Shown one piece after another: positions 7,630 to 33,714 of a stretch of DNA of 44,004 bases; the first letter of the stretch is position 1, and the number at the start of each line of letters is the position of its first letter. The DNA comes from an uncultured Saprospiraceae bacterium. Its GTDB lineage: Bacteria > Bacteroidota > Bacteroidia > Chitinophagales > Saprospiraceae. The notes below the pieces were generated by a model. It was given only the letters and a program-made list of their open reading frames with translations. It was not told where the DNA came from and did no database searches. The stretch lies in assembly GCA_937921595.1 (NCBI GenBank), contig CAKZTD010000050.1:1-44004 (forward strand). Reading direction: 5' to 3'. A program made the position numbers and the translations under genes.

Positions 7630-7673
7630 TCGCCGCTTTTGATTCGGGGGCGAAGTTAGGGAATTATTTTTAT

Positions 7674-9701: not shown

Positions 9702-9707
9702 AGGGTG

Positions 9708-9715
9708 CAAATATA
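9708..9715 (-). promoter_or_regulatory. -7 box (TATATTTG) of the BatA/VWA gene
   Basis: An exact TAnnTTTG match on the minus strand, ending 6 nt before the ATG at 9701. It overlaps the upstream TTG, which rules that codon out as the start if the promoter is used, and predicts a leaderless or near-leaderless mRNA for the two-gene unit. Confidence 0.5.
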
Positions 9716-11120: not shown

Positions 11121-14100
11121 TTACTTAGTAATCGTAACATCTCCTTTGACGATCTGTTTCACTCCATCTATGAATTCAACCTCAGCCCAGTATACAAAAA
11201 CACCAGGGTTTAATTGTTCGCCACGGAACATTCCATTCCATCCAAAAGCAGGATCATTAGGTTGGAAATTATAATTTTCAAATAAAAGCTCACCCCAACG
11301 ATCAAAAACTTGGAAAGTAGTAATTTCTTGAATTTCATCACCACCAGCGTAAATCATGAATATATCATTCGCTCCACCATTACCTGGTGAGAAAGCATTT
11401 GGAATATACACCTTACGTTTCTTCTCAACTCTCAAGGTAATCTCTTCTGTTTCAGAACATCCATTTACATTAATTACCGTCACGGTATAAGTGATTTCAT
11501 TAAAGGCGTCTGTAACTATTGGATCCAAACAATCGGTGCAACTCAATCCAGTAGCCGGAGACCATAAGATAGTATCTATGTCTTGCTCATCAAGATTAAC
11601 CAAAGCATTTAATTGATAATCCTCTCCTAACTGAATCAAAACAGATGAAGCCGTGTCAATTTCTATCATGATTTCAATTGGAATATCGATGAATAAATCT
11701 TCCGCATATTCACAACCATTTACATCTTGAACAATCAGGTCATAAGAACCTGGAGCAAGGTTGGTAAAGAAGTTTTGAGAAACAAAATTTTCACCATTAT
11801 CAATGGAATACAAATAAGGAGCATTTCCTCCGACAACTTCAGAAACCACTACATTTCCATCATCTCCAAAACATTGAGGATCTTCTATCAACATCGTTAA
11901 GCTACTTGGTACATCTGTATCTTCATCTACAAGGACAACTTCTGATTCTGTACATCCATTGGATGCATCCGTTACGATTAAAGTAAACGCTCCAGACTGA
12001 TAAACAGTAGGATCTAATGTAGTCTCATTGTCTATCGTTCCAACTCCTGTCCATTCGTAAGAAATACCTGCACCAGTCGAAGAACCAGCACCACTTAGGC
12101 TTACACTTTCTGTCAAACAATCAAACATCTCCTGCGTACTTGCTGCTGCTACTGGAGGTGTTGTATTTTCATCAACCGTAATAGAAGCTTGCGTTTCACA
12201 ACCATTGTCATTATCAATAATGAAACACACAAAAATACCTGGTTGATTGACGATAGGTGTTAAAGTATTAGCACCTGAAACGATTCCATTTCCTGTCCAG
12301 TTGTAAGTATAATTTCCATTGGTAGAAGAACCACTTGCATCAATGGATACTTCTATCACATCACAAGTAAGCATACTCGGATCTTCGATAATCACCATTG
12401 GAGCTTCAGTGTTTTCATCTACAGTTATTGAAGTAGTACTTGTACAACCATTATCTGTATTTGTAACCACTAAATCATAAGTGCCAGGCTGATTAATTTC
12501 CGGATTGATTGTCAACTCACCTGAAGTAATATTTCCATCAACGGTCGACCATTGGAAAGTCAGACTTCCAAATGGACTTGATCCTGAACCATCTAATGTA
12601 ATCGATGAATTATTACAATCCAAAGACTGTGCAGAACCATAATCAGCGAAAGCTGTCGGGTCATTTACATCTTCTCCAATGACAACCTGATCTTGAGATG
12701 AACAGTTATTATCCGTATTCAAAACAAATAAAGTATAAGTACCTGGAGAAGTAACATCAAACATCAAGTCTGTACTGATCACGGTACCTGATGCATCTTG
12801 CCATTCGTATGCAAAGTTAGCTCCTTGACTAGAAGCATTTCCATCTAGTGTAACCGTAGTTATTTCACAAGTCAATGTTGCTGTCGTCCCAGCGTCAGCT
12901 GTAGGAAGATTGGTATCTGGTACTACACTGACTGTTGAACTAGTCGTACAACCATTATCAGTATTAGTAACTATAAATGTATAAGTTCCAGCAGAAGCAA
13001 CGGTAACAGAAATCGTATTACTCAATACTGTTCCTTGATCATCTTGCCATTCGTAAATGAGGTTGGTTCCATTTCCACCAATTCCTGTTAAGGTCACATC
13101 AGTTTGACCACAAATCAAAGTTTGTTGTGTTCCTGCATCAGCAGAAGGAGGAAGGACATCTTCTAAAACTTCTAGCGTTGTTGAAGAAGTACAACCGTTA
13201 TCTGTATCGGTTACGATCAATACATAGATGCCAGGAGTTGTCGTTGTATAAGTATCATCCATTCCAAGAACAGTCTGAACATCATCTTGCCATTCGTAAG
13301 AAATATTTCCACTTACACTTGTAGAGTTGGTACCGTCCAAAATAACTTGACCATTTACACAAGTCAACATTCCACTTGGAGTCGCTTGAGCGGAAGGCAA
13401 ATTAGCATCCGGTACGATCGACGCAGTTGATTCATCAGAACAACCATTCGCTGAGTTGGTCACAACTAAGGTATAAACGCCTGTTTCACCTGCATCGAAA
13501 ACTGGTAAAGTACTTACTACTACACCTGCTTCATTCAACCATTCGAATTCAATGTTCGCACCTGAAGAAGCCGAACCATCTAAAGTTACCATAGACGCAT
13601 CACAAGTCAAGGTTCCACCTTGGCCAGCATCTGCAACTGGTGTATCTGTATCTATTCCTACTACAACTTGTTCTGTTGCAGTACATCCATTAGTTGTATT
13701 TGTAATCAATAAAGTATAAGTATCATCGACGGTTACTTCTGTAACTGGATCGTTCGAAATTACGGTTCCTGCAACATTCGTCCATTCGTAAATAAACTCA
13801 GGGCCCATACTTGTTCCAAGACCACCAATTTCATAAGCTGTAAGAATACAGGTCAATGTTTCATCATTTCCAGCATCTGCATTCGGTGGTAAAACATCTT
13901 CAGGAATTACAATAGATTGCTCCGTTTCACATCCACTAGTCGTATTGGTAACAATTAAAGTATATGTTCCAGGAGTTGCTATACTTGTCGTAGGTGTCAT
14001 CGCTATGGTTACTCCATTCTCATCTTGCCACTCATGAGTAATCCCCATTCCAGTACTTGTTCCATTACCACCTAAATCAATAGAAGCAATATTACAATCA

Positions 14101-17100
14101 AGCGTTCCTCCTAATCCTACATCCGCAACTGGGATATCATTGTCCATCAATATTTCAACAACATCTGTATCTGTACATCCATTATCTCCAGTTACAATCA
14201 AGGTATAAATTCCAGAAACAGAAACATCAAGTGTTGCAGTCATAGCAACTGTCACTCCATCCGGATTCTGCCATTCATAAGCTAATCCACCAGTACTAAT
14301 TGTAGAGCCACTTCCATCAAGTGTTGCGTCCATATCACTACAAGATAATGTCGATCCTAATCCTGCGTTCGCATTTGGTGTTTCAATATTTTCAAAAACT
14401 TCAACAGAGGAAGAAGAAGAACAACCATTATTAGTATCTGTAACAACTATGGTATAAATACCAGGAGTTGTCACGTCAAGCATTGCATCCATTCCAATGA
14501 CTGCATTACTTGCATCTTCCCATTGGTATGAAATATTTTGACCTGTACTTGAATTACTTCCATCAAGCGTTGCCATTTCTACCAGGCATGTTAAGGTACT
14601 ACTTGTTCCTGCACTTGCTGTTGGAAGATTGACATCTGGAACAACAGAGACCGTAGAAGTCATCGTACATCCATTATCTGTATCTGTTACAATTAAGGTA
14701 TAAACACCAGTCTGATCGACTTGAACAGATGCAGTCACTCCAATTGAAACGCCACCTTCATTCAACCATTCGTAAGCTATGTTTCCACTTTGAGTCGTAC
14801 CACTTCCACTAAGTGTAACTTCCGTATCACTACAAGTCAAAGTCACCCCTTGTCCTGCATTCGAAGTTGGTGTTGCAATATTTTCAAGCACCTCAACCGT
14901 TGAAGATTCGGTACAACCATTGTCTTCATTTGTAATAATCAAAGTATAAATACCTGGGAGTTCCGTTGTAACCATTGCAGTATTTCCTAATGAAACATTA
15001 CTTGCATCAAACCATTCGTAAGCGATTGTACCATTAGCTGTAGAACCTGAACCATCAAGTGTAGCACTAGTTTCAATACAAGTTAATAAGCCATCTAATC
15101 CAGGATCAACACTTGGTGTTTCGAAACTTCCAATGACTTCAACCTGATCCGTTGCAGTACAACCGTTATCTTCATTTGTTATAATCAAAGTATAGATACC
15201 AGCTTCTGTTGCGGTAAGCATTTGAGTCATTCCTACAACTGCATTGGTTGCATCTTCCCAAACATAAGATAGTGTTCCTCCTGTAGAAGCACCTCCATCT
15301 AATGTAGCCATATCAGTATCACAATCTATTTCACCATTTAGTCCTGCTTCTGCAATTGGATCTTCAATGTCCTCGTCTACAAATGCGGTAGAAGTTGAAG
15401 TACAACCATTGTCCGTATCTGTAACAACTAAAGTATAAGTACCGCTAATGGATACATCAATCATTGGATCAGTGCTAATCACCGTACCCGTAGGATCCTG
15501 CCATTCATATTCTAAAGTTCCACCAGTTGAGTTTGAACCATCTAGTGTATAATTTAAAATATTACAATTTAATAAACCATCCATTCCAGCATTTGAAACT
15601 GGAACATTGGAATCCGTTTGAACTTCAACCGTTGTCGATTGAGTACATCCATTATCTCCATTCGTTACGATCAATGTATAAGTTTCTGCAGACATCACTA
15701 CAACAGTTACTGTTGTTCCTACTTCTACTCCACTTTCATTCAACCATTGGTAAGATAAGTTATCTCCAGAAGAGTCACTTCCATCTAGTGTAACATCTGT
15801 TTCTGTACAAGTTATAAATTGAACCGTTCCAGCATCTGCATTTGGTGGCGTCATATCCTCACTCACTTCAACAGAAGAAGAAGCAGAACATCCATTATCA
15901 TCATTGGTCACAACGAGTGTGTAAGTTCCGACTATAGTTACATCAATAACTAAATCATTAGAAATTGATACCAGATTTTCATCAAACCATTCATAAGAAA
16001 TATTTCCAGTTGAGGTAGAAGCAGATCCATCTAAGGTAACCTCATCTACAATACAAGTAATAGCGGATCCTAGCCCTGCGTTAGCAGTAGGAAGACTTGC
16101 ATCTGGTGTCACATCAACCGTAGAACTTGCGGTACATCCGTTATCATCATTGGTAACAATTAGAGTATACGTTCCTGTTTCAGTAACTTCAACAGTAATC
16201 GCATTTCCTACTGTAACACCACCATTGTTCAACCATTCGTAAGAAACATTTCCTACTGTAGTAGAACCAGATCCATCAAGCGTTACTTCAGTATCAGAAC
16301 AAGTAAGCGAAGTTCCTGATCCAGCATTTGAAGTAGGAGTTGCTATATCCTGATCAAGCATAAAACTTGTTTCTGCAGTACAACCATTATCGGTATCTGT
16401 TATCACTAAAATATAATCATCTGGATCAGCAACATCTAAATCTGGTCCTGTTCCAATACTAAGACCATCTGAATCAAACCATTCATAAGTTATTGTTCCT
16501 ATTCCAGAAGAAGCAGAGCCATCTAAGGTAACTTCCATATCTGCACAAGTCAATATTCCATCAGAAGCAATATCAATACTAGGAGTAGCTACATTTTCTA
16601 ATACATTAACCGTAGTCTCTGCTGTACAACCATTTCCTGAATCTGTTATCAATAATGTATAGGTACCAGGAATTGTAACGTCGACTTCTGCTGTAGTTCC
16701 TGCTGGATCTCCATTTGGATCAGTCCAATTATAATCAATAGTACCGTTTCCTGAAGAACCACTACCATCTAAAGTAACTGGATCACCAGAACAAGATAGC
16801 ATATCATTTACGGTCGCATCTGGTGTTGGTGGATCAATACTTTCTAAAACTTCTACTGTTGTTTCAGCAGTACAGCCATTGCTCATATCCGTAATGACTA
16901 AGGTATAGATTCCTGCAACGGTAACATCTAGGTCGGCTGTTGCACCGATAACGATATCATCTGGATCTTGCCATTCATATTCTAAAGTACCATTTCCAGT
17001 TGAAGCATTTCCATCAAGACTAACAGGCGTCATCATACAATCCAAAGCATCATCAACTGAAGCTGCTGCTGAAGGTGCAGCAATATCTTCTAATAATTCT

Positions 17101-20100
17101 ACACTCATCTGAGATGTACAACCATTGTCACTATCTGTAATAATTAAAACATAATCTCCTGCATCTGCTACATCAATTTCAGCAGTCATCCCTATGACCG
17201 TTCCAGTAGGATCTTGCCATTCATAAGTTAATGTTCCTATTCCAGTGGAACCACTACCATCTAGTGTAGCCATCAAATCGATACAAGTTATATCTCCAGA
17301 AACTTGTGTATCAATCGTTGGAACATCAGTGCTCTCTCCAACCATTACATCAACTTCAGAAGTACATCCGTTTGCATCATCAGTAATTACCAAAGTAAAA
17401 GTTCCTGAATTACTTACATCTATATCAACTCCAGCTCCCAAAGAAGTATCCGTCTCATCAAACCATTCGTAAGAAAGATTACCTATACCTGTAGAACTTG
17501 ATCCATCTAATGTTACTGGATCTCCAGAACAATTAATAAGACCAGAAGCATCTGCAACTGGGCTTGGAGCTTCAATATCTTCAGGAACATCGATCAGGAA
17601 TGAAGAAGTACAACCACTTCCATCTTCCGTAACGACCAATGTATATTCACCAGGAGTAGTAATGTCTGTTTCGGCTACGTTAGCGATAACAGTTCCTCCT
17701 GCATTTTGCCATTCATAGGATAAAGTTCCAGTTCCTGTAGAACTAGATCCATCGAGTGTTGCCATATCACTGACACAACTCAAAACTCCATCAATAACAG
17801 CAGCAGCTGTTGGCACATCTGAATTTTCATCGACCATTGCACTAATCTCAGCAGTACAACCATTATTTCCATCAGTTATAATCAGTGTATAATCTCCTGA
17901 CGCTCCAACATCAGTCGTTGGATCAGTACTAATTATTGTTCCACTTGCATTTTGCCATTCATAAGATAATACACCATTACCTGTCGATCCCGTTCCATCT
18001 AATGTAACATCACTATTGGTACAAGAGATCAAACCAATTACTGAGATATCAGCACTTGGGGAAAGTGTATCTCCTGTAATCGTTACTTCTGTCGTATCCA
18101 TACAACCTAACACATCTGTGATGGTTACTGTATTTACACCAACACTTAAATTATCCGGATTTTGATTAGGGTTACCATTACTCCATTCAAACGTATATGA
18201 TGGATTTCCACCTACTACAATAAGAGAAGCAGAACCTCCAGTTGGATTAGCACAACTTACTCCTTCTGTTTCATCTGCTTGAGCAATAATCGGAGGTGGT
18301 TGAAGAATAGAAATACCGCCTATTGCTGTACATCCACTTAGATCCGTAACAGTAACGGTATAATCTCCAGCTGTCAGGCCGGTTGGATCTTCATCAATAC
18401 CCCCACCATTAGACCAGCTATAAAAGAAAGGTGCAGTTCCTCCAATAACTGTTAATTCTCCTGCTCCATTATTACCTCCAAAACAAGTAACATTTTGACT
18501 TACAAAAGTATTTGCAGTCATAGCATCAGGTTGTGTCAATGTAATTGACTCAACTATAGTACAGTTATTCATATCTGTAGCTGTAACCGTATAAGTCCCT
18601 GCCCCTAATTGTATTAAATCTTCATTAGAACTAGCGTTACTCCAGTTATAAGTATAACCACCAGGAGCACCTCCTAATACAGTAAGGTCTATTGCTCCAG
18701 TGAGATCACCATTACAGTTGATCGGTGCAACTTCAAAAATAGAAGCACTTAAAGCAGTTGGTTCACTTAATGTTGTTGTAACTGTTTCGGAACAACCGTT
18801 AAGATCTGTAACTGTAACCGTATAAGTACCGAATGGCACATTAATCAAATCCTCTGTCACCTCTCCTGTTGCCCAAGCATAAGTATAAGTTGGATCACCT
18901 CCAGAAGGTGTTATATCAATAGATCCTGTTTGATCACCATTACATGCGATATTAACAGGAATGACATTTAATTGAACATCTATATTTTGTACATTGACCG
19001 TTCCACTCGCAGCCCCTGTACAAAAAGAATTGGAGACTCCACTAAGCGTATAAGAACCTTGGTTAGTCACCACCAAATCATATGGATTATCTGTAATCCC
19101 ATTAATTGTTACTGGACTTCCGTTCAATGTATAAGTAATATCCCAAGGTCCGACTCCTGTAAAAGATACTGTAAGTGTAGCACTCGCATTTGGGTCTTCA
19201 GCACAAAGCGCAGCATTGCCACTCAAGGTTGCTGTTGGTGCACTTAGTACGGTTACTGTAAAATCAGCTTCTGTTGAGATATTACAATTATCTGTTATCG
19301 TAACGGTATATGTCGTTGTTCCTGCGGGGGAGACATCTACGGATGAACCATTTCCAAGGCCATTACTCCAAGAATAAGTGTAAGGCAATGCGCCTCCAGT
19401 AATTGCTGGACTTAAGGTGGTGTTACCGCCTCCACAAACAGAAGTCATTTCATCCATCACCATCATGTCTTCGTAATCATCTATATAGAGTATCGTTTCT
19501 TGCCCTAAACAAGAGCAAGCATCATCTTCTAAGGTAATGGTAATGGTCTCTTGCCCTTCCGCAATAGCATCTGGTAAAATATCAACTAGAATAGATGCAA
19601 AACCAGCACCTGCTGGAATGGTAATGCTATTTGGAAAAGGTACATAATCAACTCCCGCAGTTGCGGTTCCTCCTATTGTAAAGTTTACGGTTAATGGATC
19701 TGGGCCGCCCAACCCATTAAAGAATAAAAACTCCCCATCTTGGCAAGCTTCAATTGCAACATCTCCACTAGCACCTTGTACTTCTGCTTGTACGTCTAGT
19801 GCTCCTCCAGCATCAAAACTTTTTCCTTTTAGGAATACAGCAGAATCGAATGCACTATCCGATGCATCACCTACAATCAACTTAATATGATAAGTCTCAC
19901 AGGCTACTAAACCTGTTAATGTAGCAGTAAACACATCAGTGAAACCATCATATTCTATATCGTTTAAATTAGTCGTTCCTCCACAAGAGTTTTGATTATT
20001 TGGATTGAAAAAACCACTGTTAATATTTTGATTAACATTATTAATAGCGATTTCTGTATTTGTTCCAGGAACCAAAGCGATGTTTTCTGCACCTAGTGAA

Positions 20101-21005
20101 TAAGGTCCAGTAATTCCAGGCCCGCTTACAAAAAAACCAAAAGCATCATTATATTGAGATCCTACAAAAGTACAATACTCTTCAGATGCAAAAACAAATT
20201 CAAATTCTAAAGCGTCTAGAGTTGGAATAAAATCAAACTCTAAACCATTACAATTATTCATATTTGGGTTCCCCGACAAGGCCAACAAATCTGGATCATT
20301 TTGATTATTAGGTGCAGTGTTGCTACTCGCCGTTCCTCCTGCAGGACCAGGTGCATCAGTTACATTACCAGAAGCAAGAATAACTCCTCCTCCTCCAAAA
20401 CCAATTACGTCGGCATTTTGGAAAAAGCCAGCTCCATCATCTGATCCAATAATCGATGCATTGGATACATCAAAACAATCTCCTCCAATAAAAATATCAG
20501 AAACCAATTGATCCGCTGAGAAATTTGGATCTACACTTATGTTAGGTAAAAAAGAAATTGGACTATTACCAGTGTTGCAAGATGTGCATTCAACCGTCAT
20601 ATAGGCTAAGTACTCTGGATCACTGATGCAAGTACTTTTAGAAACTTCTATGTCAATACAAGTCGTCAATGCTTTGAATTCCAAAAGAGCTTGACCGGAG
20701 TCAATGCTTAGATTAGTTTTTTCAACTTTAGCTTCTCTTCCAACAATCTTTGAAAGAAACTGACAAGTACGATCCGTATGACCGAAACCACTTATAATAT
20801 AGGTTTCTCCTACTTCTAAATTACAAAAGGTCAAAAGGTTGTTATCTCCTGACAATAGAAGTTCTGCTCGATGATGATCACTAGTAATTTCTATAGGATC
20901 ATCATTATACTTGCAAAAAGTATCAGAATCATTGGATGAAAAGGAAAGATTAGGGAATACCATTAACAGTATAATCCCTAGACAGTAAGGTAGAATTGGG
21001 CGCAT
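11121..21005 (-). CDS. Giant surface adhesin P1: choice-of-anchor-L, Calx-beta, SprB and PKD/Ig-like repeats, CHU_C tail
   Basis: A 3294-residue exported protein. Order: signal peptide (~1-24); cysteine-containing N-terminal domain; choice-of-anchor-L domain ~165-395 (LVSDIFIGGDCFDVSNA, FVFASEEYC, FGFFVSGPG); Calx-beta-like domain ~405-515; two Ig-like domains; four SprB repeats ~690-980 (GGDPTYTYAWATGE, GTYTVTVTD); 25 PKD/Ig-like modules ~981-3028; one SprB-like repeat; a connector with LSCTDCLDP; and a gliding-motility-associated CHU_C tail in the last ~95 residues (PNAFSP, FQVFDRWGELLFE, GWNGMFRG, GDVTITK). The tail predicts T9SS export and anchoring on the cell surface, so an adhesin or matrix role is inferred. 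Residues 396-3191 contain no lysine or arginine by eye. The gene diverges from the SGNH hydrolase and ends at the shared terminator. It is paralogous to P2 and P3. Confidence 0.93.
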   Translation of the reverse strand: MRPILPYCLGIILLMVFPNLSFSSNDSDTFCKYNDDPIEITSDHHRAELLLSGDNNLLTFCNLEVGETYIISGFGHTDRTCQFLSKIVGREAKVEKTNLSIDSGQALLEFKALTTCIDIEVSKSTCISDPEYLAYMTVECTSCNTGNSPISFLPNISVDPNFSADQLVSDIFIGGDCFDVSNASIIGSDDGAGFFQNADVIGFGGGGVILASGNVTDAPGPAGGTASSNTAPNNQNDPDLLALSGNPNMNNCNGLEFDFIPTLDALEFEFVFASEEYCTFVGSQYNDAFGFFVSGPGITGPYSLGAENIALVPGTNTEIAINNVNQNINSGFFNPNNQNSCGGTTNLNDIEYDGFTDVFTATLTGLVACETYHIKLIVGDASDSAFDSAVFLKGKSFDAGGALDVQAEVQGASGDVAIEACQDGEFLFFNGLGGPDPLTVNFTIGGTATAGVDYVPFPNSITIPAGAGFASILVDILPDAIAEGQETITITLEDDACSCLGQETILYIDDYEDMMVMDEMTSVCGGGNTTLSPAITGGALPYTYSWSNGLGNGSSVDVSPAGTTTYTVTITDNCNISTEADFTVTVLSAPTATLSGNAALCAEDPNASATLTVSFTGVGPWDITYTLNGSPVTINGITDNPYDLVVTNQGSYTLSGVSNSFCTGAASGTVNVQNIDVQLNVIPVNIACNGDQTGSIDITPSGGDPTYTYAWATGEVTEDLINVPFGTYTVTVTDLNGCSETVTTTLSEPTALSASIFEVAPINCNGDLTGAIDLTVLGGAPGGYTYNWSNASSNEDLIQLGAGTYTVTATDMNNCTIVESITLTQPDAMTANTFVSQNVTCFGGNNGAGELTVIGGTAPFFYSWSNGGGIDEDPTGLTAGDYTVTVTDLSGCTAIGGISILQPPPIIAQADETEGVSCANPTGGSASLIVVGGNPSYTFEWSNGNPNQNPDNLSVGVNTVTITDVLGCMDTTEVTITGDTLSPSADISVIGLISCTNSDVTLDGTGSTGNGVLSYEWQNASGTIISTDPTTDVGASGDYTLIITDGNNGCTAEISAMVDENSDVPTAAAVIDGVLSCVSDMATLDGSSSTGTGTLSYEWQNAGGTVIANVAETDITTPGEYTLVVTEDGSGCTSSFLIDVPEDIEAPSPVADASGLINCSGDPVTLDGSSSTGIGNLSYEWFDETDTSLGAGVDIDVSNSGTFTLVITDDANGCTSEVDVMVGESTDVPTIDTQVSGDITCIDLMATLDGSGSTGIGTLTYEWQDPTGTVIGMTAEIDVADAGDYVLIITDSDNGCTSQMSVELLEDIAAPSAAASVDDALDCMMTPVSLDGNASTGNGTLEYEWQDPDDIVIGATADLDVTVAGIYTLVITDMSNGCTAETTVEVLESIDPPTPDATVNDMLSCSGDPVTLDGSGSSGNGTIDYNWTDPNGDPAGTTAEVDVTIPGTYTLLITDSGNGCTAETTVNVLENVATPSIDIASDGILTCADMEVTLDGSASSGIGTITYEWFDSDGLSIGTGPDLDVADPDDYILVITDTDNGCTAETSFMLDQDIATPTSNAGSGTSLTCSDTEVTLDGSGSTTVGNVSYEWLNNGGVTVGNAITVEVTETGTYTLIVTNDDNGCTASSTVDVTPDASLPTANAGLGSAITCIVDEVTLDGSASTSTGNISYEWFDENLVSISNDLVIDVTIVGTYTLVVTNDDNGCSASSSVEVSEDMTPPNADAGTVQFITCTETDVTLDGSDSSGDNLSYQWLNESGVEVGTTVTVVVMSAETYTLIVTNGDNGCTQSTTVEVQTDSNVPVSNAGMDGLLNCNILNYTLDGSNSTGGTLEYEWQDPTGTVISTDPMIDVSISGTYTLVVTDTDNGCTSTSTAFVDEDIEDPIAEAGLNGEIDCDTDMATLDGGASTGGTLSYVWEDATNAVVGMTQMLTATEAGIYTLIITNEDNGCTATDQVEVIGSFETPSVDPGLDGLLTCIETSATLDGSGSTANGTIAYEWFDASNVSLGNTAMVTTELPGIYTLIITNEDNGCTESSTVEVLENIATPTSNAGQGVTLTCSDTEVTLSGSGTTQSGNIAYEWLNEGGVSIGVTASVQVDQTGVYTLIVTDTDNGCTMTSTVSVVPDVNLPTASAGTSSTLTCLVEMATLDGSNSSTGQNISYQWEDASNAVIGMDAMLDVTTPGIYTIVVTDTNNGCSSSSSVEVFENIETPNANAGLGSTLSCSDMDATLDGSGSTISTGGLAYEWQNPDGVTVAMTATLDVSVSGIYTLIVTGDNGCTDTDVVEILMDNDIPVADVGLGGTLDCNIASIDLGGNGTSTGMGITHEWQDENGVTIAMTPTTSIATPGTYTLIVTNTTSGCETEQSIVIPEDVLPPNADAGNDETLTCILTAYEIGGLGTSMGPEFIYEWTNVAGTVISNDPVTEVTVDDTYTLLITNTTNGCTATEQVVVGIDTDTPVADAGQGGTLTCDASMVTLDGSASSGANIEFEWLNEAGVVVSTLPVFDAGETGVYTLVVTNSANGCSDESTASIVPDANLPSAQATPSGMLTCVNGQVILDGTNSTSVSGNISYEWQDDVQTVLGMDDTYTTTTPGIYVLIVTDTDNGCTSSTTLEVLEDVLPPSADAGTQQTLICGQTDVTLTGIGGNGTNLIYEWQDDQGTVLSNTISVTVASAGTYTFIVTNTDNGCTTSSTVSVVPDTNLPTADAGTTATLTCEITTVTLDGNASSQGANFAYEWQDASGTVISTDLMFDVTSPGTYTLFVLNTDNNCSSQDQVVIGEDVNDPTAFADYGSAQSLDCNNSSITLDGSGSSPFGSLTFQWSTVDGNITSGELTINPEINQPGTYDLVVTNTDNGCTSTTSITVDENTEAPMVIIEDPSMLTCDVIEVSIDASGSSTNGNYTYNWTGNGIVSGANTLTPIVNQPGIFVCFIIDNDNGCETQASITVDENTTPPVAAASTQEMFDCLTESVSLSGAGSSTGAGISYEWTGVGTIDNETTLDPTVYQSGAFTLIVTDASNGCTESEVVLVDEDTDVPSSLTMLIEDPQCFGDDGNVVVSEVVGGNAPYLYSIDNGENFVSQNFFTNLAPGSYDLIVQDVNGCEYAEDLFIDIPIEIMIEIDTASSVLIQLGEDYQLNALVNLDEQDIDTILWSPATGLSCTDCLDPIVTDAFNEITYTVTVINVNGCSETEEITLRVEKKRKVYIPNAFSPGNGGANDIFMIYAGGDEIQEITTFQVFDRWGELLFENYNFQPNDPAFGWNGMFRGEQLNPGVFVYWAEVEFIDGVKQIVKGDVTITK
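11922..18064 (-). repeat. P1 stalk: 25 coding modules of about 82 residues (246 bp)
   Basis: Each module follows one pattern: proline boundary, A-x-A, G-x-LTC, VTLDGSxSxxG, xISYEW, an acidic loop, PGTYTLVVTD, NGCT, and an acidic linker ending ED(I/V/M). Twenty-five copies can be laid out end to end. Each has two cysteines about 50-55 residues apart and one central tryptophan. Modules differ too much at DNA level to be a simple satellite, so the array is old and under protein-level selection. The last three modules depart most from the consensus, and the third from last has the unusual SSPFGSL loop. Confidence 0.9.
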
Positions 21006-25101: not shown

Positions 25102-28100
25102 CTATCGAGTCAGCGTTACATCGCCTTTTACGATCAATGAAAAGCCATCGATAAATTCGACACGAGCCCAGTAGACAAAAACACCAGGGTTTAGTTCTTG
25201 ATCACGGAATTTTCCATTCCAGCCAAAGTTCGGGTCATTGGCTTGGAAATTATTCGCTCCAAAAACCTGTTCGCCCCAGCGATCAAATATCTGAAGTGTG
25301 GTTATTTCTTTTACTTCATCATTATCTGCGAAGATCATTAAGACATCATTGATTCCATCATTATTAGGTGTAAAGATATTTGGAACAAAAACTTCTCTGC
25401 CTTTTTCGACTCGAAGGATAATCTCTTCTGTATCGGAGCATCCGTTTTCGTTGATAATGGTTACCGTATAAATTGAAGTATTTAAAATATCAACGCTAGG
25501 GTTAAGACAATCGGTACAACTCAAACCTTCTGCTGGCGACCATAAGATCGTATCGATTTCTTCTAAAGGAATATTAATTAGCGCATTGATCTGGTAACCT
25601 TCTCCGAGTTGAATTAATACCGAAGGTTCTACATTTACATCTACTTCAACAGGTTCACTAATAAAGAGATTTTCAGCATACTCGCAACCATTCGCATCTT
25701 GAACAACTAAGTCGTAACTTCCCGGATCTAGGTTGGTGAATACACTTTGAGGAACAAAATTTTCACCATTATCAATAGAATATAAATAAGGCGCATCTCC
25801 TCCAATTACCGTAGAAATTACTACATTTCCATTGTCACCAAAACACTCTGGGTTTTCTACCAAAAGTTCAAAACTAGTTGGCACATTTGTATCTTCCGCA
25901 ACCACTAACGTTTCGGTTATGGTACAACCATTGGAAGCATCTGTCACCAATAAGGTGTAAGCTCCCGGTTCGTAAACCGTCGGGTCTAAAGTCGTTGAAT
26001 TATCAATTGTTCCATTCCCGGTCCAGAGGTAAGAAAAATTAGATCCAACAGATGAACCTTCTCCACTAAGGTTCACACTTTCTGTCAAGCAGTCAAATTC
26101 ACCTAATGCGATATTTGAAACAGATGGAGGCGTTGTATTTTCATCAACAGAAACGGAGGCTGCGCTTTCACAACCATTTTCATTATCAATAATGGTAAGC
26201 GTAAAAGTTCCTGATTGATTAACCGTTGGTTCAAGCGTATTGCCACCAGCGATAATGCCATTTCCAGTCCAGATATACGTCAAGTCACCAACGGAAGAAG
26301 AAGCACTTGCATCAATCCCTACTTCGAGAACATTACAAGTAATCAAATCCGGATCTTCAATCACGATAGCAGGAGGAGAAATATTTTCATCAACGGTTAT
26401 TGAAGTCGTACTTGTACAACCATTATCTGTATTGGTCACCACCAAAATATAAGTACCTGCTTCGTCAATTTCGGGGTTGATGCTAGTTGTACCAGAGCTA
26501 ATATTTCCGTCAGTCGTAGACCATAAAAATTCTAAACTCCCAAAAGGACTAGAACCTGAACCATCCAACGTAATCGAATTATTATTACAATCCAATGATT
26601 GAGCGGAACCATAATCAGCGAATGCAGTCGGATCGTTTATATCTTGATTGATAATCACCTGATCTTGGGCAGAACAGTTATTATCCGTATTTAAAACAAC
26701 TAAAGTATACGTTCCAGGATTTGAAACATCAAAAGTTAAATCTGTACTGATCACAATTCCAAATTCATTTTGCCATTCATATTCAAAATTAACTCCTTGG
26801 CTAGAAGCATTTCCATTAAGGGTAAATAATACATTCTCACAAGTCAACATCCCTCCTACTCCTGCATCTGCTGTTGGTAAATTATTATCTGGGATTAAGT
26901 CAACCGTCGAACTTGCATTACAACCATTATCATCATTAGTAACAATCAACACATAAGTTCCAGTCGAAGAAACAGTGATCGTTGCTTCATCGCCAATTGT
27001 AACTCCTTGATCATTCAACCAAGCATAACTTAGGTTTGTTCCATTACCACCAATTCCAGTCAGCGTCGCTTCCGTCTGTCCACAAATCAAAGTTTGTGTT
27101 GCCCCTGCGTCTGCCGTTGGTTGGATCATATCCTCAAGCACCTCGACATTCGTACTTGTACTACATCCGTTTGCATCATCGGTAACCACTAAGGTATAAA
27201 TCCCCGGAATATTTACATCAAAATTATCATCTATAGAAAGAGAATTTCCTAGATCATCACGCCATTCGTAAGAGGTCATTCCACTAACACTAGTTGAAGT
27301 TGATCCATCAAGATTTACTTGACTAATTACACAAGTCAAAATGCCATCTGGATTTGCAATAGCCATTGGAAGATTTGCATCAGGAATAACGGTAGCTATG
27401 GAAGAAGCAGTACAACCGTTTTGATCATTGGTAACGATTAGTGTAAAGGTTCCTGTTTCGGCAACTTGAGTAGAAACCATATTTGAAATCACTACTCCAG
27501 ATTCATTTTGCCATTCGTAGGATAAATTATTTCCTGTAGAATTGCTTCCATCAAGTGTCACTTCTGAAACATCACAGGTCAAGGTTCCATCACCACCGGC
27601 ATTAGCCATTGGGCTTTGAATATCCTGATCAATGATCACATCAGAACTTGTGGTACAACCATTTGCATTATTGGTCACCACAAGATTGTACATTCCAGGG
27701 TCTGCAATCGAAGGATTGATGTCTTCTGAAATTATAACATCATTTTCATCTTGCCATTCGTAAGAAAATTCTGCACCAACACTTGTTCCAATACCACCTA
27801 ATTCATAATCCAATAACACACAAGTCAAGGTTTCATCAATGCCTGCATCTGCAATTGGCGGCGTAATGTCCTGAAGAATTTCTAGACTAGCTGTTGCATC
27901 ACAATCATTATCTAAATTGGTTACCAATAAAGTATAAATATCTGGAGCAGCAATGTCAATCGTTGGTGTTCCTCCTAAAACATTTCCATCACTATCGGTC
28001 CATTGATAAGAAACATTCAAACCATTATTACTACTCGCATCTCCGAGATCTAAATTTAAAGTTTCACAAGTTAATAAACCACCAGCGCCAATAACCGCTT

Positions 28101-31100
28101 CCGGTACATTGGCATCTAAAAGCACTTCGACTTCATCTGATGCAGTACAACCATTACTTCCGGTGATCACTAAAGTATATACTCCAGCCATAGTTACATT
28201 GGTCGCAGCAAAATCAGCAATGAGATTTCCATCGGCATCAAACCATTCAAAATTGGTAATTACTCCAGAAGAAGTGCTTGACATTCCACCATCAATGATC
28301 ACTTGATTATCATCACAAGTTAGCGTTGGATCTGATCCTGCTAAGGCAGTCGGTGGATCAATGTTTTCAAAAACTTCAACTGTAGAACTTGCGGAACAAC
28401 CATTATTGCTATCGGTTACAATGAGTGTATAAATTCCAGTATCGGCAACCATTTGGGTATTGTCTTCACCGAGTATTGTTCCATTTTCATCTTGCCATTC
28501 ATAACTGATATTCATTCCGGTACTTGAGTTGCTTCCATCTAAAACTACTTCTGTATCCGTACACGTCAAAGTAAAACTAGTTCCCGCATTGGCAGTTGGT
28601 AGATTTGCATCTGGTAAAACTTCTACTGTAGAAGTTGAAGTACAACCATTCGCATCATCAGTAATAATTAAGGTATAAATCCCAACTTCGGTAACTTCCA
28701 CCGCAGGCATATTTCCTACTGTGACACCACCTGCATTTTGCCATTCATAAGAAACACTTCCGTTTTGGCTGGTTCCACTACCAATGAGTGTTACTTCTGT
28801 TTCATCACAAGTTAGAAATGCTCCCTGTCCTGCATTTGCAGAAGGAGTAATTATATTTTCATCAACAAAAATGGTTTCACTTTCTGTACAACCATTTGCA
28901 AGATTTGTAACAATAACCGTATAGGTTTCTGATGCCATTACATCAACCATTGCATCTCCACTTATTGAAATATCATTTTCATCAAACCATTCAAAATCAA
29001 GGGGTGCATTTCCAGAAGAATTGCTTGCATCTAAAGTAACCGTAGTTTGAATACAGGTCAATAGATCTGCCGTTCCCGGATCAATGGTAGGCATTTCAAA
29101 ATCTTCATCAACAATCAATTCATCGCTTGATGTACAACCATTACTTCCGGTAATAATTAAAGTATAAGTTCCCGGATTTGTAACGTCAGCAATCGCTAAG
29201 GTTGACAATAAATTCCCACCTTCATCATACCATTCGTAATTGGTTATGACACCAGTCGAAACGGATGATTGATTTCCATTTAGAATTAATTCATCATTGG
29301 TGCAAGTCAAAATCGTATCTGATCCTGCAATGGTATTTGGTAGATCAATATCTTCAAAAATCTCCACTGTAGAACTTGCAGTACATCCATTATTTGTGTC
29401 TGTTACCAACAGAGTATAAACACCTGTAGCTCCAGCTAATTCGATTAACGAGTCACCTAAAATATTTCCATCAGAATCTTGCCATTCGTATTCATAATTT
29501 GAACCGATGCTGGAAGCCGAACCATCTAAGGTTGCTTCGGTATTTGAACAAGTCAACGTAAAACTTGCACCTGCATCTGCCGTCGGAACATTTGCATCTG
29601 GTAAAACATTAACGATAGTCATTGCTGTACAACCATTTTCCTGATCGGTAACCACTAGCGTGTATTCTGCTGTTTCCTCAACCACTATTTCTTCTTCAAC
29701 ACTAATCGAAATACCGTCTTCATCAAACCATTCAAAAGCCAAATCATTTCCTATAGAATTTCCACCACTCAAAGTAACTTCAGTATCCGAACAAGTCAAA
29801 AATGCATTATCTCCAGCATCTGCTGTTGGCGCATTCATGTCTTCTTCGACTTCGACTGATGAGGTAGCGGTACAACCATTATCTGTATTGGTCACGACCA
29901 AAACATAAGTTCCCGCAGCCATAACATCAATACTTAAATCACCTCCTAAAGTAACATCATTGGGATCAAACCATTCATACGAAATATTACCTCCTGAACT
30001 GGAATCACTTCCATCTAGATTTACCTCATCTACCACGCAAGTAAGACTTGCACCGTCTCCTGCATTGGCCGTAGGGAGGTCTGCATCCGGATCAACTTGA
30101 ACCATTGATTCTGCCGTACAACCATTTGTACCATTGGTAACGATGAGTGTATAGTTTCCTGTTTCTGTAACCGTAACCATGACATCTTCTCCGACGGTCA
30201 CCCCTCCTTCATTGATCCATTCATAAGAAATTTCAGATCCAGAAGAAGAGTTACTACCGTCCAATATAGTTTCAGAATCGGAGCAAGTAATAAAAGCATT
30301 ATCTCCAGCATTTGAAGTAGGAGCAGACATATCTTCTGCTGCATTGATCGTCGTTTCAGCAGTACAACCATTCGCATCATCTGTAATGACTAAAGTATAG
30401 GTATCTGTATTTAAAACATCAACGGTTTCCTCCATTCCAATAGAGTTCCCATCGGCATCAAACCACTCATAGCTAATCGTCCCAACACCAGAAGAAGTAC
30501 TACCATCGAGTGGTACTTCCATAATAATACAAGTAAGTGTTTCATCCACAGTTGCAACCGGAGTTGGTTCTGCTACATCTTCCGTTGGATTAAAAGTAGT
30601 TTCAGCAGTACATCCATTTCCATCATCCGTAATCACTAAAGTGTAAGTATCGGTAGTTGAAACTTCCACGGTAACTTCTGTTCCAATAGAATTCCCATCC
30701 ACATCAAACCATTCATAGCTAATCGTTCCAATTCCTGTCGAAGCACTTCCATCTAATTCGACTTCTAAATCAGCACAAGTCAATTGACCATCTACACTAA
30801 TGTCTGGACTTGGTTCAACAATATTTTCAGTCGCATTTATAGTTGTCGAAGCCGTACATCCATTTGCTCCATCTGTTATAATCAAGGTATAAATATCTGT
30901 ATTAGAAACTTCGATGGTAGGATTTGTTCCTAAAGAAGCATCAGTTGCATCAAACCATTCATAGGTAATTGTTCCAGTTCCCGAAGAACCAGTTCCATCT
31001 AAAGTCGCATTGATATCTTGGCAAGTCAAAACCCCATCAACGCTAGCAACCGGATCAGGAGCGTCCATATTTTCATCTACTTCTATCATTGTTGTAGCAG

Positions 31101-33714
31101 TACAACCATTATCGGAATCGGTGATAATCAAGGTGTACATTCCAATATCACTCACATTTATTGTTTCTGTGATAGCAATAAGATTTCCATCTGCATCAAA
31201 CCATTCATAAGAAATGGTTCCGATTCCTGAGGAACTTGTTCCATCCAACGTTGCTTCCATATCCTGACAAGTGATCAGACCAGAGACTGCCGCATCAATT
31301 GTTGGAACAGTGATACTTTGAGTCACCTGAACACTGGTCGAGGCAGTACAACCATTATCACTATCGGTAATCACTAGAATATAAACTCCAGCTTCTGTTA
31401 CTTCATTGGTCGGTCCTTCACCAAGACTGTCTCCACTTACATTTTGCCATTCATAAGAAAGTGTTCCAACTCCGAAAGAAAAAGAACCATCAATAGTTAT
31501 CGGATCATCACTGCAATCTAGCACATCAGACGCCGTCGCAATTGCTGTCGGCTCATTGGTATTTTCAGTTACTATGATCATCGTATCTGCGGTACATCCA
31601 TTGTCGTCATCTGTGATCACTAAAGTGTAAACACCAAATTGTGTTACATCTATTTCTGATGTGATTCCTATTGAAACATTATTTTGATCGAACCATTCAA
31701 AATTTAAATTTCCTGTTCCAGTAGAAGCACTACCATCTATGGTTACGGCTGTTTCATTACAAGTCAACATACCAGAAATTGCAGCTTCTATATTCGGAGG
31801 ATTTGAATTTCCAGTAACGGTAACAAAATCAGAATTCAAACAACCTGTTGCTAGATTTAAAAGAGACAAAGTATATAAACCTGGTTCGCAAACTTCAGGA
31901 TTTGGTTCATTAGATGAAAAGCCATTAGGGCCAGTCCATGTCAAAGAAATATCTGCACCGCTATCTGAGCCTAATGAACTTAAGGTTACACAGCTACTTG
32001 TACAATCAAAATTTTGATTATCACCAGCTTCAACCGTTGGGAGGATCGCTCCATCAATAACTTCTACAGTTACAGGGATTGCTGGACAAACAGCATCACC
32101 TAGAATTTGAACTAAAGTCATCGTGTACATTCCTGGACAATTCACAAGAGGGTTCGTTGTGTTTTGTCCGCTTATAAAACAATCCGGAGAAGGTCCAGTC
32201 CAAGTGTAACTGACCACACCTGGTCCTGCAGTAGAAGGCGTGGCGTCAATTAAAACAGAGGTATTAAAGCAAGTTATAGGTGCAGGTTGAAAAGCAACTG
32301 CAATCGGATTTAATACTGTAAGATTTAAGGTAACGATACTATCGCATCCATTAGCTGCCTGATCATTTAAAGTAACTTCGTGAATACCTGTTGTACAAAA
32401 TTGTTGATTGCCAACCATTTCACAAAAGCCAGCACAAACGGCTGCATCATAACTAAAATAACTTGCTGGATTTACGGTTAGGTTTGTATTTAAAATACTA
32501 CTACATCCATTAGGTAATGGTGTAATATCTGTATAAAAACCGCTCGTCGTTTGATTCGCTCCACCAGCAAAATAAGATTCGCCTTCGCAAATTTCAACAT
32601 CGACAGTACTTACATCTCCTGCTGGAAATTCTGGTGCTGTAACTGGACAAACTGATTGGTTATTTACTGCTCCTCCTGTCGAAGCGGTAAATCCCCAATA
32701 ACAATTGGAACTTCCACCAAGGCAATTATTTATAATATCATAATTACCTGACAAGGTCAATCCTCCATCAAAGTAAATTTCGTAGCCATTAGTCACCGGA
32801 TCCCAAACGAAACGAATTTCATGATCCTGACCATCTTCAATATTACCAAGATCATAAGGTCCATTAATAGCTACTGATTGATCTCCATTTGCATGTACAG
32901 CCACGTGATCATTGGGGATGTCACTAGCCCCAGCTCCATTATCCCAGGTATCAAATTCTACTATAAAAGAATTTGTAAAGTTAGATGCTATAGAACCACC
33001 TGTACCACCACAAGTATTGAGACCAGAAGCATTATTTTGAAACACCCAGGTAATTCCATCGGCTCCTGCATCGCTATTTCCGAAATTAAAATTAAAAGTT
33101 TCATCAAAAGGTAAATTCAAATCTATTTGACTTGGATCCCAAGCACAAGCACTTTGGCCGGGTCCTGTAGTAGTTAATTGTATACAATCTCCAGAAACCT
33201 GAGCACTTCCAACTGTCGAAGTGGTTGGTACTGGAGGCGCAGTAATAGGTCCATCGGAAATTCTGATTTCAAAAGTCCCGTTCGGTCCTCCTCCTTCTGC
33301 CCATATTCGAATATATATTGTCGAACCTCCAGGAAGACCAGTAAGATTCATGATCGGCATAATCGTATTTCCACAATTATCATCTTCGGTACAGGAGATT
33401 AAATTAGGGTTGGAACACGGTCCTTCATAAATGGCCATAGCTGCATTGCTCATTCCTCCGGCTAACGTTGCAATATCTAACATCCCACTCGGAGGTACTG
33501 AAACTGAAAACCAAATATCCGAACCGCTATAACTTCCACATCCGGGATCAGGTATTCCTGAATCACTATTTCCTGAATTATTAAAGGTTTGAAAAGAAGT
33601 CATGTTATTTGCTAGAGGAGTGGCTCCGCATGGGCTATCTCCTGCAAATAAGGATGCAATATTCAATAGAAAAAAAGAGAGGAAGAGGGTAATTCTCCAG
33701 TAAAGTTTGTCCAT
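25102..33714 (-). CDS. Giant surface adhesin P2: legume-lectin-like head, PKD/Ig-like repeats, CHU_C tail
   Basis: A 2870-residue exported protein. A signal peptide (~1-24) is followed by a pre-peptidase-like beta domain (~28-155: CGATPL, SGSDIWFSVSVPPSG, IYIRIWAEGG). Next is an L-type (legume-like) lectin domain at ~185-365, with DGITWVFQNN, SFIVEFDTWDN, DHVAVHANGD and IRFVWDPVTNGYEIYFDGG, suggesting carbohydrate binding. Then come a cysteine-rich connector (~365-470), two degenerate modules (~471-636), 24 standard PKD/Ig-like modules (~637-2608), one SprB-like repeat, the LSCTDCLNP connector and a CHU_C tail (PNIFTPNNDGIND, LQIFDRWGEQVF, GWNGKFRD). Export by the T9SS and surface attachment are inferred from the tail. 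Between residues 302 and 2767 I find a single basic Arg (2152) and no Lys. The stalk and tail are paralogous to P1 and P3; the head is not. Confidence 0.93.
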   Translation of the reverse strand: MDKLYWRITLFLSFFLLNIASLFAGDSPCGATPLANNMTSFQTFNNSGNSDSGIPDPGCGSYSGSDIWFSVSVPPSGMLDIATLAGGMSNAAMAIYEGPCSNPNLISCTEDDNCGNTIMPIMNLTGLPGGSTIYIRIWAEGGGPNGTFEIRISDGPITAPPVPTTSTVGSAQVSGDCIQLTTTGPGQSACAWDPSQIDLNLPFDETFNFNFGNSDAGADGITWVFQNNASGLNTCGGTGGSIASNFTNSFIVEFDTWDNGAGASDIPNDHVAVHANGDQSVAINGPYDLGNIEDGQDHEIRFVWDPVTNGYEIYFDGGLTLSGNYDIINNCLGGSSNCYWGFTASTGGAVNNQSVCPVTAPEFPAGDVSTVDVEICEGESYFAGGANQTTSGFYTDITPLPNGCSSILNTNLTVNPASYFSYDAAVCAGFCEMVGNQQFCTTGIHEVTLNDQAANGCDSIVTLNLTVLNPIAVAFQPAPITCFNTSVLIDATPSTAGPGVVSYTWTGPSPDCFISGQNTTNPLVNCPGMYTMTLVQILGDAVCPAIPVTVEVIDGAILPTVEAGDNQNFDCTSSCVTLSSLGSDSGADISLTWTGPNGFSSNEPNPEVCEPGLYTLSLLNLATGCLNSDFVTVTGNSNPPNIEAAISGMLTCNETAVTIDGSASTGTGNLNFEWFDQNNVSIGITSEIDVTQFGVYTLVITDDDNGCTADTMIIVTENTNEPTAIATASDVLDCSDDPITIDGSFSFGVGTLSYEWQNVSGDSLGEGPTNEVTEAGVYILVITDSDNGCTASTSVQVTQSITVPTIDAAVSGLITCQDMEATLDGTSSSGIGTISYEWFDADGNLIAITETINVSDIGMYTLIITDSDNGCTATTMIEVDENMDAPDPVASVDGVLTCQDINATLDGTGSSGTGTITYEWFDATDASLGTNPTIEVSNTDIYTLIITDGANGCTASTTINATENIVEPSPDISVDGQLTCADLEVELDGSASTGIGTISYEWFDVDGNSIGTEVTVEVSTTDTYTLVITDDGNGCTAETTFNPTEDVAEPTPVATVDETLTCIIMEVPLDGSTSSGVGTISYEWFDADGNSIGMEETVDVLNTDTYTLVITDDANGCTAETTINAAEDMSAPTSNAGDNAFITCSDSETILDGSNSSSGSEISYEWINEGGVTVGEDVMVTVTETGNYTLIVTNGTNGCTAESMVQVDPDADLPTANAGDGASLTCVVDEVNLDGSDSSSGGNISYEWFDPNDVTLGGDLSIDVMAAGTYVLVVTNTDNGCTATSSVEVEEDMNAPTADAGDNAFLTCSDTEVTLSGGNSIGNDLAFEWFDEDGISISVEEEIVVEETAEYTLVVTDQENGCTAMTIVNVLPDANVPTADAGASFTLTCSNTEATLDGSASSIGSNYEYEWQDSDGNILGDSLIELAGATGVYTLLVTDTNNGCTASSTVEIFEDIDLPNTIAGSDTILTCTNDELILNGNQSSVSTGVITNYEWYDEGGNLLSTLAIADVTNPGTYTLIITGSNGCTSSDELIVDEDFEMPTIDPGTADLLTCIQTTVTLDASNSSGNAPLDFEWFDENDISISGDAMVDVMASETYTVIVTNLANGCTESETIFVDENIITPSANAGQGAFLTCDETEVTLIGSGTSQNGSVSYEWQNAGGVTVGNMPAVEVTEVGIYTLIITDDANGCTSTSTVEVLPDANLPTANAGTSFTLTCTDTEVVLDGSNSSTGMNISYEWQDENGTILGEDNTQMVADTGIYTLIVTDSNNGCSASSTVEVFENIDPPTALAGSDPTLTCDDNQVIIDGGMSSTSSGVITNFEWFDADGNLIADFAATNVTMAGVYTLVITGSNGCTASDEVEVLLDANVPEAVIGAGGLLTCETLNLDLGDASSNNGLNVSYQWTDSDGNVLGGTPTIDIAAPDIYTLLVTNLDNDCDATASLEILQDITPPIADAGIDETLTCVLLDYELGGIGTSVGAEFSYEWQDENDVIISEDINPSIADPGMYNLVVTNNANGCTTSSDVIIDQDIQSPMANAGGDGTLTCDVSEVTLDGSNSTGNNLSYEWQNESGVVISNMVSTQVAETGTFTLIVTNDQNGCTASSIATVIPDANLPMAIANPDGILTCVISQVNLDGSTSTSVSGMTSYEWRDDLGNSLSIDDNFDVNIPGIYTLVVTDDANGCSTSTNVEVLEDMIQPTADAGATQTLICGQTEATLTGIGGNGTNLSYAWLNDQGVTIGDEATITVSSTGTYVLIVTNDDNGCNASSTVDLIPDNNLPTADAGVGGMLTCENVLFTLNGNASSQGVNFEYEWQNEFGIVISTDLTFDVSNPGTYTLVVLNTDNNCSAQDQVIINQDINDPTAFADYGSAQSLDCNNNSITLDGSGSSPFGSLEFLWSTTDGNISSGTTSINPEIDEAGTYILVVTNTDNGCTSTTSITVDENISPPAIVIEDPDLITCNVLEVGIDASASSSVGDLTYIWTGNGIIAGGNTLEPTVNQSGTFTLTIIDNENGCESAASVSVDENTTPPSVSNIALGEFDCLTESVNLSGEGSSVGSNFSYLWTGNGTIDNSTTLDPTVYEPGAYTLLVTDASNGCTITETLVVAEDTNVPTSFELLVENPECFGDNGNVVISTVIGGDAPYLYSIDNGENFVPQSVFTNLDPGSYDLVVQDANGCEYAENLFISEPVEVDVNVEPSVLIQLGEGYQINALINIPLEEIDTILWSPAEGLSCTDCLNPSVDILNTSIYTVTIINENGCSDTEEIILRVEKGREVFVPNIFTPNNDGINDVLMIFADNDEVKEITTLQIFDRWGEQVFGANNFQANDPNFGWNGKFRDQELNPGVFVYWARVEFIDGFSLIVKGDVTLTR
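25890..31803 (-). repeat. P2 stalk: 24 coding modules of about 82 residues
   Basis: Same module pattern as in P1 and in register with it: P2 module n corresponds to P1 module n+1 for n = 7 to 24. Inside the array, modules 10-11 closely resemble modules 14-15. Both pairs have an extra-residue loop (STGVITNYEW or SSGVITNFEW) and the shortened TGSNGCT end, pointing to an internal multi-module duplication or conversion. Modules 3-6 share EWFDADGNSIG-type sequence and look recently amplified. Confidence 0.88.

Follow-up and report, generated by a model that had tools for sequence, protein, structure and literature searches.

Grappling hooks are described as heptamers of a protein that is secreted by the type IX secretion system (T9SS) and binds the flagella of prey (PMC11205867). 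Judged by sequence profiles and modelled structures, grappling-hook protein A (GhpA) is the closest solved relative of the stalk modules in three giant proteins, P1, P2 and P3, which are encoded by an uncultured Saprospiraceae bacterium on contig CAKZTD010000050.1 of GenBank assembly GCA_937921595.1 (positions 1 to 44,004, the stretch of 44,004 nucleotides that was analysed and is called the window below). Lysine (K) and arginine (R), together K/R, are almost completely missing from these stalks, and this absence is the subject here. A module profile search retrieved GhpA of Aureispira sp. CCB-QB1 (PDB 9flp) at an E-value of 6.5e-120, and the top eight Foldseek matches of the modules were the eight cryo-EM entries of GhpA (TM-score by query 0.56-0.64). 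Like P1-P3, GhpA is a giant (5898 amino acids, aa) with homologous stalk modules and a type-B sorting domain, its gene being present in genome G186, and it is poor in K/R, with 1.14 % K+R in the body and one free run of 919 residues. By genome kinship (G186), its host belongs to the same family as the bacterium of the window. The head of GhpA consists of DUF11-type and isopeptide-forming fimbrial domains, whereas the tips of P1-P3 are of the choice-of-anchor L or L-type lectin kind. Unlike P1, GhpA has retained 53 R, and its content of aspartate plus glutamate (D+E) is only 7.3 %. As the stalk and the sorting domain are shared and the head is not, P1-P3 are not termed grappling hooks. The genome of the window gave no match to a GhpA fragment at an E-value of 1e-30, with 12 of 183 first-look candidates scored. 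A gene for the type VI secretion system sheath (PF05943), sought as a sign of ixotrophy, was not found in G000, nor was one found in the Aureispira-like G186.

P1, P2 and P3 are predicted to be paralogous giant adhesin-like surface proteins. P2 and P3 shared 51 % and 44 % identity with P1 in the alignment, and the three have a common plan of an N-terminal piece, a tip domain, stalk modules of about 82 residues with two cysteines, and a type-B sorting domain (TIGR04131, PF13585; 36.5, 46.0 and 40.9 bits in P1, P2 and P3, cut-off 35). The SprB-type gliding adhesins of Flavobacterium johnsoniae resemble all three in the type-B domain and resemble P1 and P3 in the SprB repeats (PF13573). The Pfam scan reported no such repeat for P2, and, in a search confined to the window, none of the ten other open reading frames (ORFs) scanned there had a Pfam match to PorP/SprF; in both points the locus differs from the SprB type. 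Cargo with a type-B domain is reported to have usually a cognate PorP/SprF gene nearby (PMC10202324). Lysine deserts, long conserved stretches without lysine as also seen in P1-P3, have been linked to ubiquitin or pupylation (PMC10665810, PMC10169902). In contrast to these deserts, P1-P3 lose arginine too, carry export signals and extend the depletion over thousands of residues; a connection with ubiquitin or Pup degradation would not be expected for proteins that are exported. The proteins of halophiles are acidic, acids exceeding bases, and the stalks of P1-P3 have an excess of acids as well; unlike in halophiles, it is exported stalks that are affected here, while SprA, fragments of TamB and nine ordinary ORFs of the window are normal.

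Exclusion of lysine and arginine from the stalks

In this genome and in many Saprospiraceae, the sequences show that purifying selection acting on the protein keeps the stalk free of K and R. The first-pass annotation, made by eye, had placed the K/R-free part of P1 between Lys395 and Arg3192. The automated count went from K395 straight to R3192, with 2796 residues between them, and reproduced positions 11433-19820 exactly; it agreed as well with the span proposed for P3 (residues 436-2786) and with the single arginine noted in P2, which is R2152 (codon CGT) within residues 303-2767. That the stalks would be strongly negative was borne out by a D+E content of 14-16 % in the three spans and by a net charge of -399 over the 2796 residues of P1. 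The computed isoelectric point of the P1 span was 4.05, which we take to be the floor of the Biopython routine, so that the real value would be lower. The expected near-invisibility to tryptic proteomics also stood, as trypsin should release no peptide short enough to be useful from a span of 2796 aa. The O-glycosylation motif D[ST][AILMVT] was observed 4, 6 and 10 times in P1, P2 and P3 versus 28, 21 and 14 times predicted from composition; this null ignores the module pattern, thus nothing is concluded from the rarity.

At 10.6 % K+R, the level of the nine ordinary window ORFs, the naive probability of the P1 span is about 10^-136. Repeats are not independent, and a substitution test was therefore preferred, in which P1 was aligned with P2, P3 and those 14 relatives that exceed 2300 aa, 16 proteins in all, and the expectation was taken from BLOSUM62. 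In 13 of the 16 comparisons, 0-7 K/R were observed versus 125-192 expected at 1139-1728 differing sites; the three outliers were L149, L151 and L155 with 25, 20 and 57 K/R. Read in the two remaining sense frames, the DNA of the spans contained 252 and 453 K/R codons for P1, 262 and 416 for P2, and 294 and 399 for P3. Of the 2796 codons in the P1 span, 1354 could be turned into a K/R codon by a single base change, and 12.6 % of the one-step nonsynonymous changes would yield one of the two. Among 49 stalk proteins bearing five or more modules each, collected with a module hidden Markov model (HMM) that was built from P1-P3 and is thus biased towards K/R-poor modules, 20 had no K/R in any module and 39 had less than 1 %, the latter together 56 K/R in 46,481 residues. 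In such proteins, with all modules aligned to a single HMM, 66 of 76 well-filled module columns held at least ten residue types, so the stalk positions are free to vary.

Distribution in the genome and in relatives

The genome of the bacterium (8.04 Mb) yielded 73 type-B matches, 72 of which were measured. Runs of at least 500 residues without K/R were present in 27 of these 72 proteins and runs of at least 1000 in six; 18 of the 27 long runs stopped within the last 125 residues. The median K+R content of 67 type-B bodies was 1.0 %, with 33 below 1 %, and the final 100 residues of the 72 proteins had a pooled content of 9.1 %. For type-A cargo, the eight longest frames among the 150 matches listed had longest runs of 1729, 1621, 1040, 890, 497, 400, 222 and 163 residues. 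The trait is thus not tied to the type-B domain, and type-A cargo, being partly depleted in these frames, was dropped as a normal control. A first type-A sample (29 of 30 loci measured, frames of 227-579 aa, bounded by the fetched length) had a median of 5.0 % K+R and a longest run of 397. Relatives retrieved by sequence, a sample biased by the K/R-free patterns used for retrieval, comprised 26 loci with 36 ORFs of at least 600 aa, and runs of at least 1000 residues occurred in 16 and of at least 2000 in six of these ORFs. The longest runs were 2965 and 2952, the latter ending at a contig end. Twenty giants of the family, chosen for length among the matches to the GhpA fragment, had longest runs of 143-1267 and 0.47-4.01 % K+R in the body. 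Ten other genomes, drawn from the family, the order and the class, gave 40 long type-B proteins, nine of which had a run of at least 500 (maximum 1577); the degree of depletion thus varies among T9SS proteins of this length, contrary to the uniform depletion that, according to the first-pass annotation, would have counted against its finding. Depletion is frequent within the family and patchy beyond it, and P1 lies close to the extreme without being the only such protein. No report of K/R-free T9SS stalks was among the matches listed in the open-licence literature, a scope outside which most subscription papers lie. A frame of 9991 aa is open in L216 (G092:C142), with GhpA-like modules listed; 5236 aa of it were read.

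The exclusion is independent of one fold, as seen in L131, where 1577 residues without K/R consist of repeats that by eye are of the HYR type. Several K/R-free runs are also poor in acids: 847 aa with 0.1 % D+E in L117, 946 aa with 0.6 % in L094 and 1288 aa with 3.2 % in L106. With type-A cargo and nearly uncharged stalks also free of K/R, the trait is not simply strong negative charge. Across the 49 stalk proteins, the K/R level was unrelated to D+E or to module number. Elsewhere in the same genome K/R are ordinary: SprA has 11.2 % K+R over 2484 aa and no K/R-free stretch of more than 47 residues, and the content is 9-10 % in two fragments of TamB and 9.2 % in PorU. For PorU2 it is 6.5 % in the portion of the sequence that was read.

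Explanations for the exclusion

A non-stick stalk that excludes cations is the leading reading, to which we give a probability of roughly 0.4. Selection would bear on the exposed stalk once the protein has been exported, for an electrostatic reason. A stalk that lacks cations would be unable to make salt bridges to slime polymers, to adjacent stalks or to the anionic surface of the cell; thus it would stay stretched out without sticking, and binding would be left to the tip. In some lineages a nearly uncharged stalk may be the other route to the same state, taken instead of the acidic one. K/R are kept in the N-terminal piece and in the C-terminal sorting domain, and in the latter they are probably needed. 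For type-A domains, efficient secretion is reported to require conserved lysines near the C-terminus (PMC10202324). Mutual charge repulsion, proposed in the first-pass annotation, may apply to the acidic stalks of the window, but was weakened as a general reason by the runs of 847 and 946 aa in other Bacteroidota that are almost without D/E. At offsets -2, +1 and +2 of residual K/R, acids reached about 1.5 times the level of polar reference positions in proteins below 1 % K+R versus about 1.2 times in those above 4 %, the offsets having been picked post hoc from a table and the values rounded.

Several observations weigh against the non-stick stalk. The frequency of acids next to residual K/R does not climb in strict steps with depletion, since proteins with 2-4 % K+R do not exceed those above 4 %. 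Trypsin is slowed by nearby acids as well, so this signal cannot separate a charge effect from proteolysis. One lysine among about 400 acids barely alters the net charge, so that a tolerance close to zero would call for highly effective selection or for a cost that acts locally, e.g., a cut site. A pure charge model does not predict relatives that tolerate arginine and are poor in lysine, such as L142 of Lewinella sp. ANT-68 (1 K, 31 R; K/(K+R) of 0.57 in the flanks), L210 of G115 (12 K, 172 R) and L209, which is GhpA (11 K, 53 R). The opposite, more K than R, was found in L218 (111 K, 42 R) and L140 (18 K, 4 R).

Resistance to trypsin-type endoproteases is the main rival and, in our judgement, possible but unlikely. 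In a linear fibre a single cut anywhere loses the tip, so every exposed K or R of the stalk would be costly, while those in the tip piece or in a sorting domain held at the outer membrane would be cheaper. Such a cause accounts for the near-zero tolerance per site and for the loss of both residues, it suits a trait that tracks T9SS cargo exposed at the surface but leaves SprA and TamB untouched, and it is consistent with the acid neighbours common around residual K/R. Trypsin-type proteases are reported as important in sea water (PMC5641328). Histidine is nearly missing from the spans of P1, P2 and P3 (0.04, 0.04 and 0.13 %), and in the 49 stalk proteins it is low with or without K/R depletion (Spearman 0.11, p 0.44); its scarcity was for this reason not counted against proteolysis. 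Bonds between K/R and proline are poorly cut by trypsin, but such pairs were not enriched beyond less depleted proteins, the odds ratio being 1.33 (p 0.08) below 1 % K+R, 1.02 at 1-2 %, 1.23 at 2-4 % and 1.37 above 4 %. Nor was there a significant bias between strands and loops, with 34 residual K/R in 24,101 strand and 21 in 21,706 loop positions (p 0.18). Lineages with many R and few K speak against proteolysis too, and the loss of D/E in L117 and L094 is left unexplained. Gingipain-like proteases had been suggested in the first-pass annotation; gingipains made by the bacterium itself were rejected as selecting agent, since both C25 peptidases that turned up are sortases, PorU and PorU2. The genome also gave eight matches to the Trypsin family, candidates at the level of the family.

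A constraint on export, by which positive residues slow the passage through Sec or T9SS at a cost that sums over thousands of residues, had also been considered, for the T9SS, in the first-pass annotation and was weakened to an improbable cause. Arginine is reported to be rate-limiting for Sec transport in vitro, and lysine to be preferred over arginine in secreted proteins (PMC9110029), and body length was weakly anticorrelated with K/R (Spearman -0.26, p 0.03, n=67). Module number was uncorrelated with K/R, however (rho -0.11, p 0.47), and ordinary K/R are present in the TamB fragments, in SprA, an outer-membrane protein that presumably passes Sec, and in PorU, which bears a type-A sorting domain; PorU2 has 6.5 % over the portion read. 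The loss of K is no smaller than that of R, opposite to an arginine-specific effect on Sec: in the bodies of the genome with the strongest depletion K/(K+R) is 0.28, versus 0.61 in ordinary window proteins and 0.39-0.41 expected from one-step mutation. A Sec or length limit was rejected on the ordinary K/R of SprA and on this shift.

There is a small chance that lysine amines are shunned as unwanted acceptors of the PorU/PorU2 sortase or for other amine chemistry, arginine being lost for a second reason. PorU has been described as joining cargo to amines (PMC10202324), both PorU and PorU2 are encoded in the genome, and lysine is shunned more than arginine in this genome and in several relatives. 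The loss of arginine in P1 and P3 would be left unexplained, though, L218 and L140 retain more K than R, and type-B cargo may be shielded from PorU, as has been suggested (PMC10202324). Saving of nitrogen or synthesis cost in a very abundant exported protein is very improbable. Side-chain nitrogen per residue is indeed 0.10-0.12 in the stalks of P1-P3 versus 0.32 in the nine ordinary window ORFs, and the mean synthesis cost is about 20-21 versus 25, but such an effect should be graded rather than near zero, and cost was rejected as main cause because asparagine rises (6.4-8.3 % versus 4.9 %) and the costly tryptophan and isoleucine are retained. An artefact of recent module duplication or base composition is scarcely credible, for although the modules are tandem repeats, modules and paralogues diverge widely and are still without K/R, near-zero K/R at more than 1100 differing sites in 13 of 16 comparisons led to the rejection of repeat copying, and composition was rejected on the plentiful K/R codons of the other two sense frames, K/R-free runs above 1000 being found across loci of 0.35-0.55 G+C.

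In P1, P2 and P3, K/R return as an RVxKxR cluster right before the sorting domain. The motif [KR]x[KR] was present in the last six residues before this domain in 25 of 49 type-B proteins of the genome in which the sorting-domain motif is recognisable, versus none of four in the sample from other genomes. The non-stick stalk may be extended to a rule for the Saprospiraceae, which we regard as doubtful in its full breadth: long exposed T9SS stalks of any fold or sorting type would be cation-free from the tip to the sorting domain and would form non-stick, trypsin-proof and tryptically invisible fibres, grappling-hook relatives included, with the basic cluster as the sole release point for a basic-site protease in this genus. 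If the rule were general, tryptic proteomes and amine-labelling surveys would systematically miss the giant fibres on the surface of a widespread family. The stalks would offer a model from nature for long protein spacers that are neither sticky nor cleaved, and they would provide a clean test of what shapes the composition of surface proteins, be it charge, proteolysis or chemistry. The kinship with GhpA ties the proteins of the window to the fibre class that contains this solved predatory hook.

Architecture and neighbouring genes

The full-length modules were tallied by eye from the HMM listing, and the tally recovered the 25 modules claimed for P1. Two P1 modules modelled by AlphaFold2 were all-beta domains with a predicted local distance difference test score (pLDDT) of 96. 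One disulfide per stalk module is likely, and at about 4 nm per module the stalk would be about 100 nm long. The model of the P1 tip was weak (pLDDT 72); a fold search with it gave no match over the whole length, Calx-beta structures being among its weak matches.

Table 1. Predicted features of P1, P2 and P3 in the window
Feature	Position	Strand	Basis
P1, giant T9SS type-B surface protein (predicted)	11121..21005	-	3294 aa ORF
P1 K/R-free span, residues 396-3191 (2796 aa)	11433..19820	-	K/R count
P1 choice-of-anchor L domain (NF038133), residues 169-397	19815..20501	-	E 2.6e-64
P1 Calx-beta-like stretch, residues 443-495	19521..19679	-	26.0 bits, just under the cut-off of 27
P1 stalk, 25 full-length PKD/Ig-like modules with two Cys each, residues 990-3033	11907..18038	-	module HMM
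P1 basic cluster RVEKKRK, residues 3192-3198	11412..11432	-	first K/R past the span, abuts the sorting domain
P1 T9SS type-B sorting domain, residues 3199-3294	11124..11411	-	domain profile matches
P2, giant T9SS type-B surface protein (predicted)	25102..33714	-	2870 aa ORF
P2 span, residues 303-2767, sole R is R2152 (codon 27259-27261)	25414..32808	-	K/R count
P2 L-type lectin-like tip, residues 168-357	32644..33213	-	E 7.2e-33
P2 stalk, 25 full-length modules, residues 563-2612	25879..32028	-	module HMM
P3, giant T9SS type-B surface protein (predicted)	34253..43204	-	2983 aa ORF
P3 K/R-free span, residues 436-2786 (2351 aa)	34847..41899	-	K/R count
P3 choice-of-anchor L domain, residues 160-400	42005..42727	-	E 1.2e-66
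P3 stalk, 23 full-length modules, residues 840-2724	35033..40687	-	module HMM

A type-A T9SS protein of 330 aa with only 11 K and 2 R adjoins P1 (9994-10986, plus strand). The gene for elongation factor G lies between P1 and P2 (22441-24549, minus strand). An ORF of 792 aa without Pfam match (5311-7686, minus strand) overlaps with its start the end of a BatA-like gene (7674-9710).

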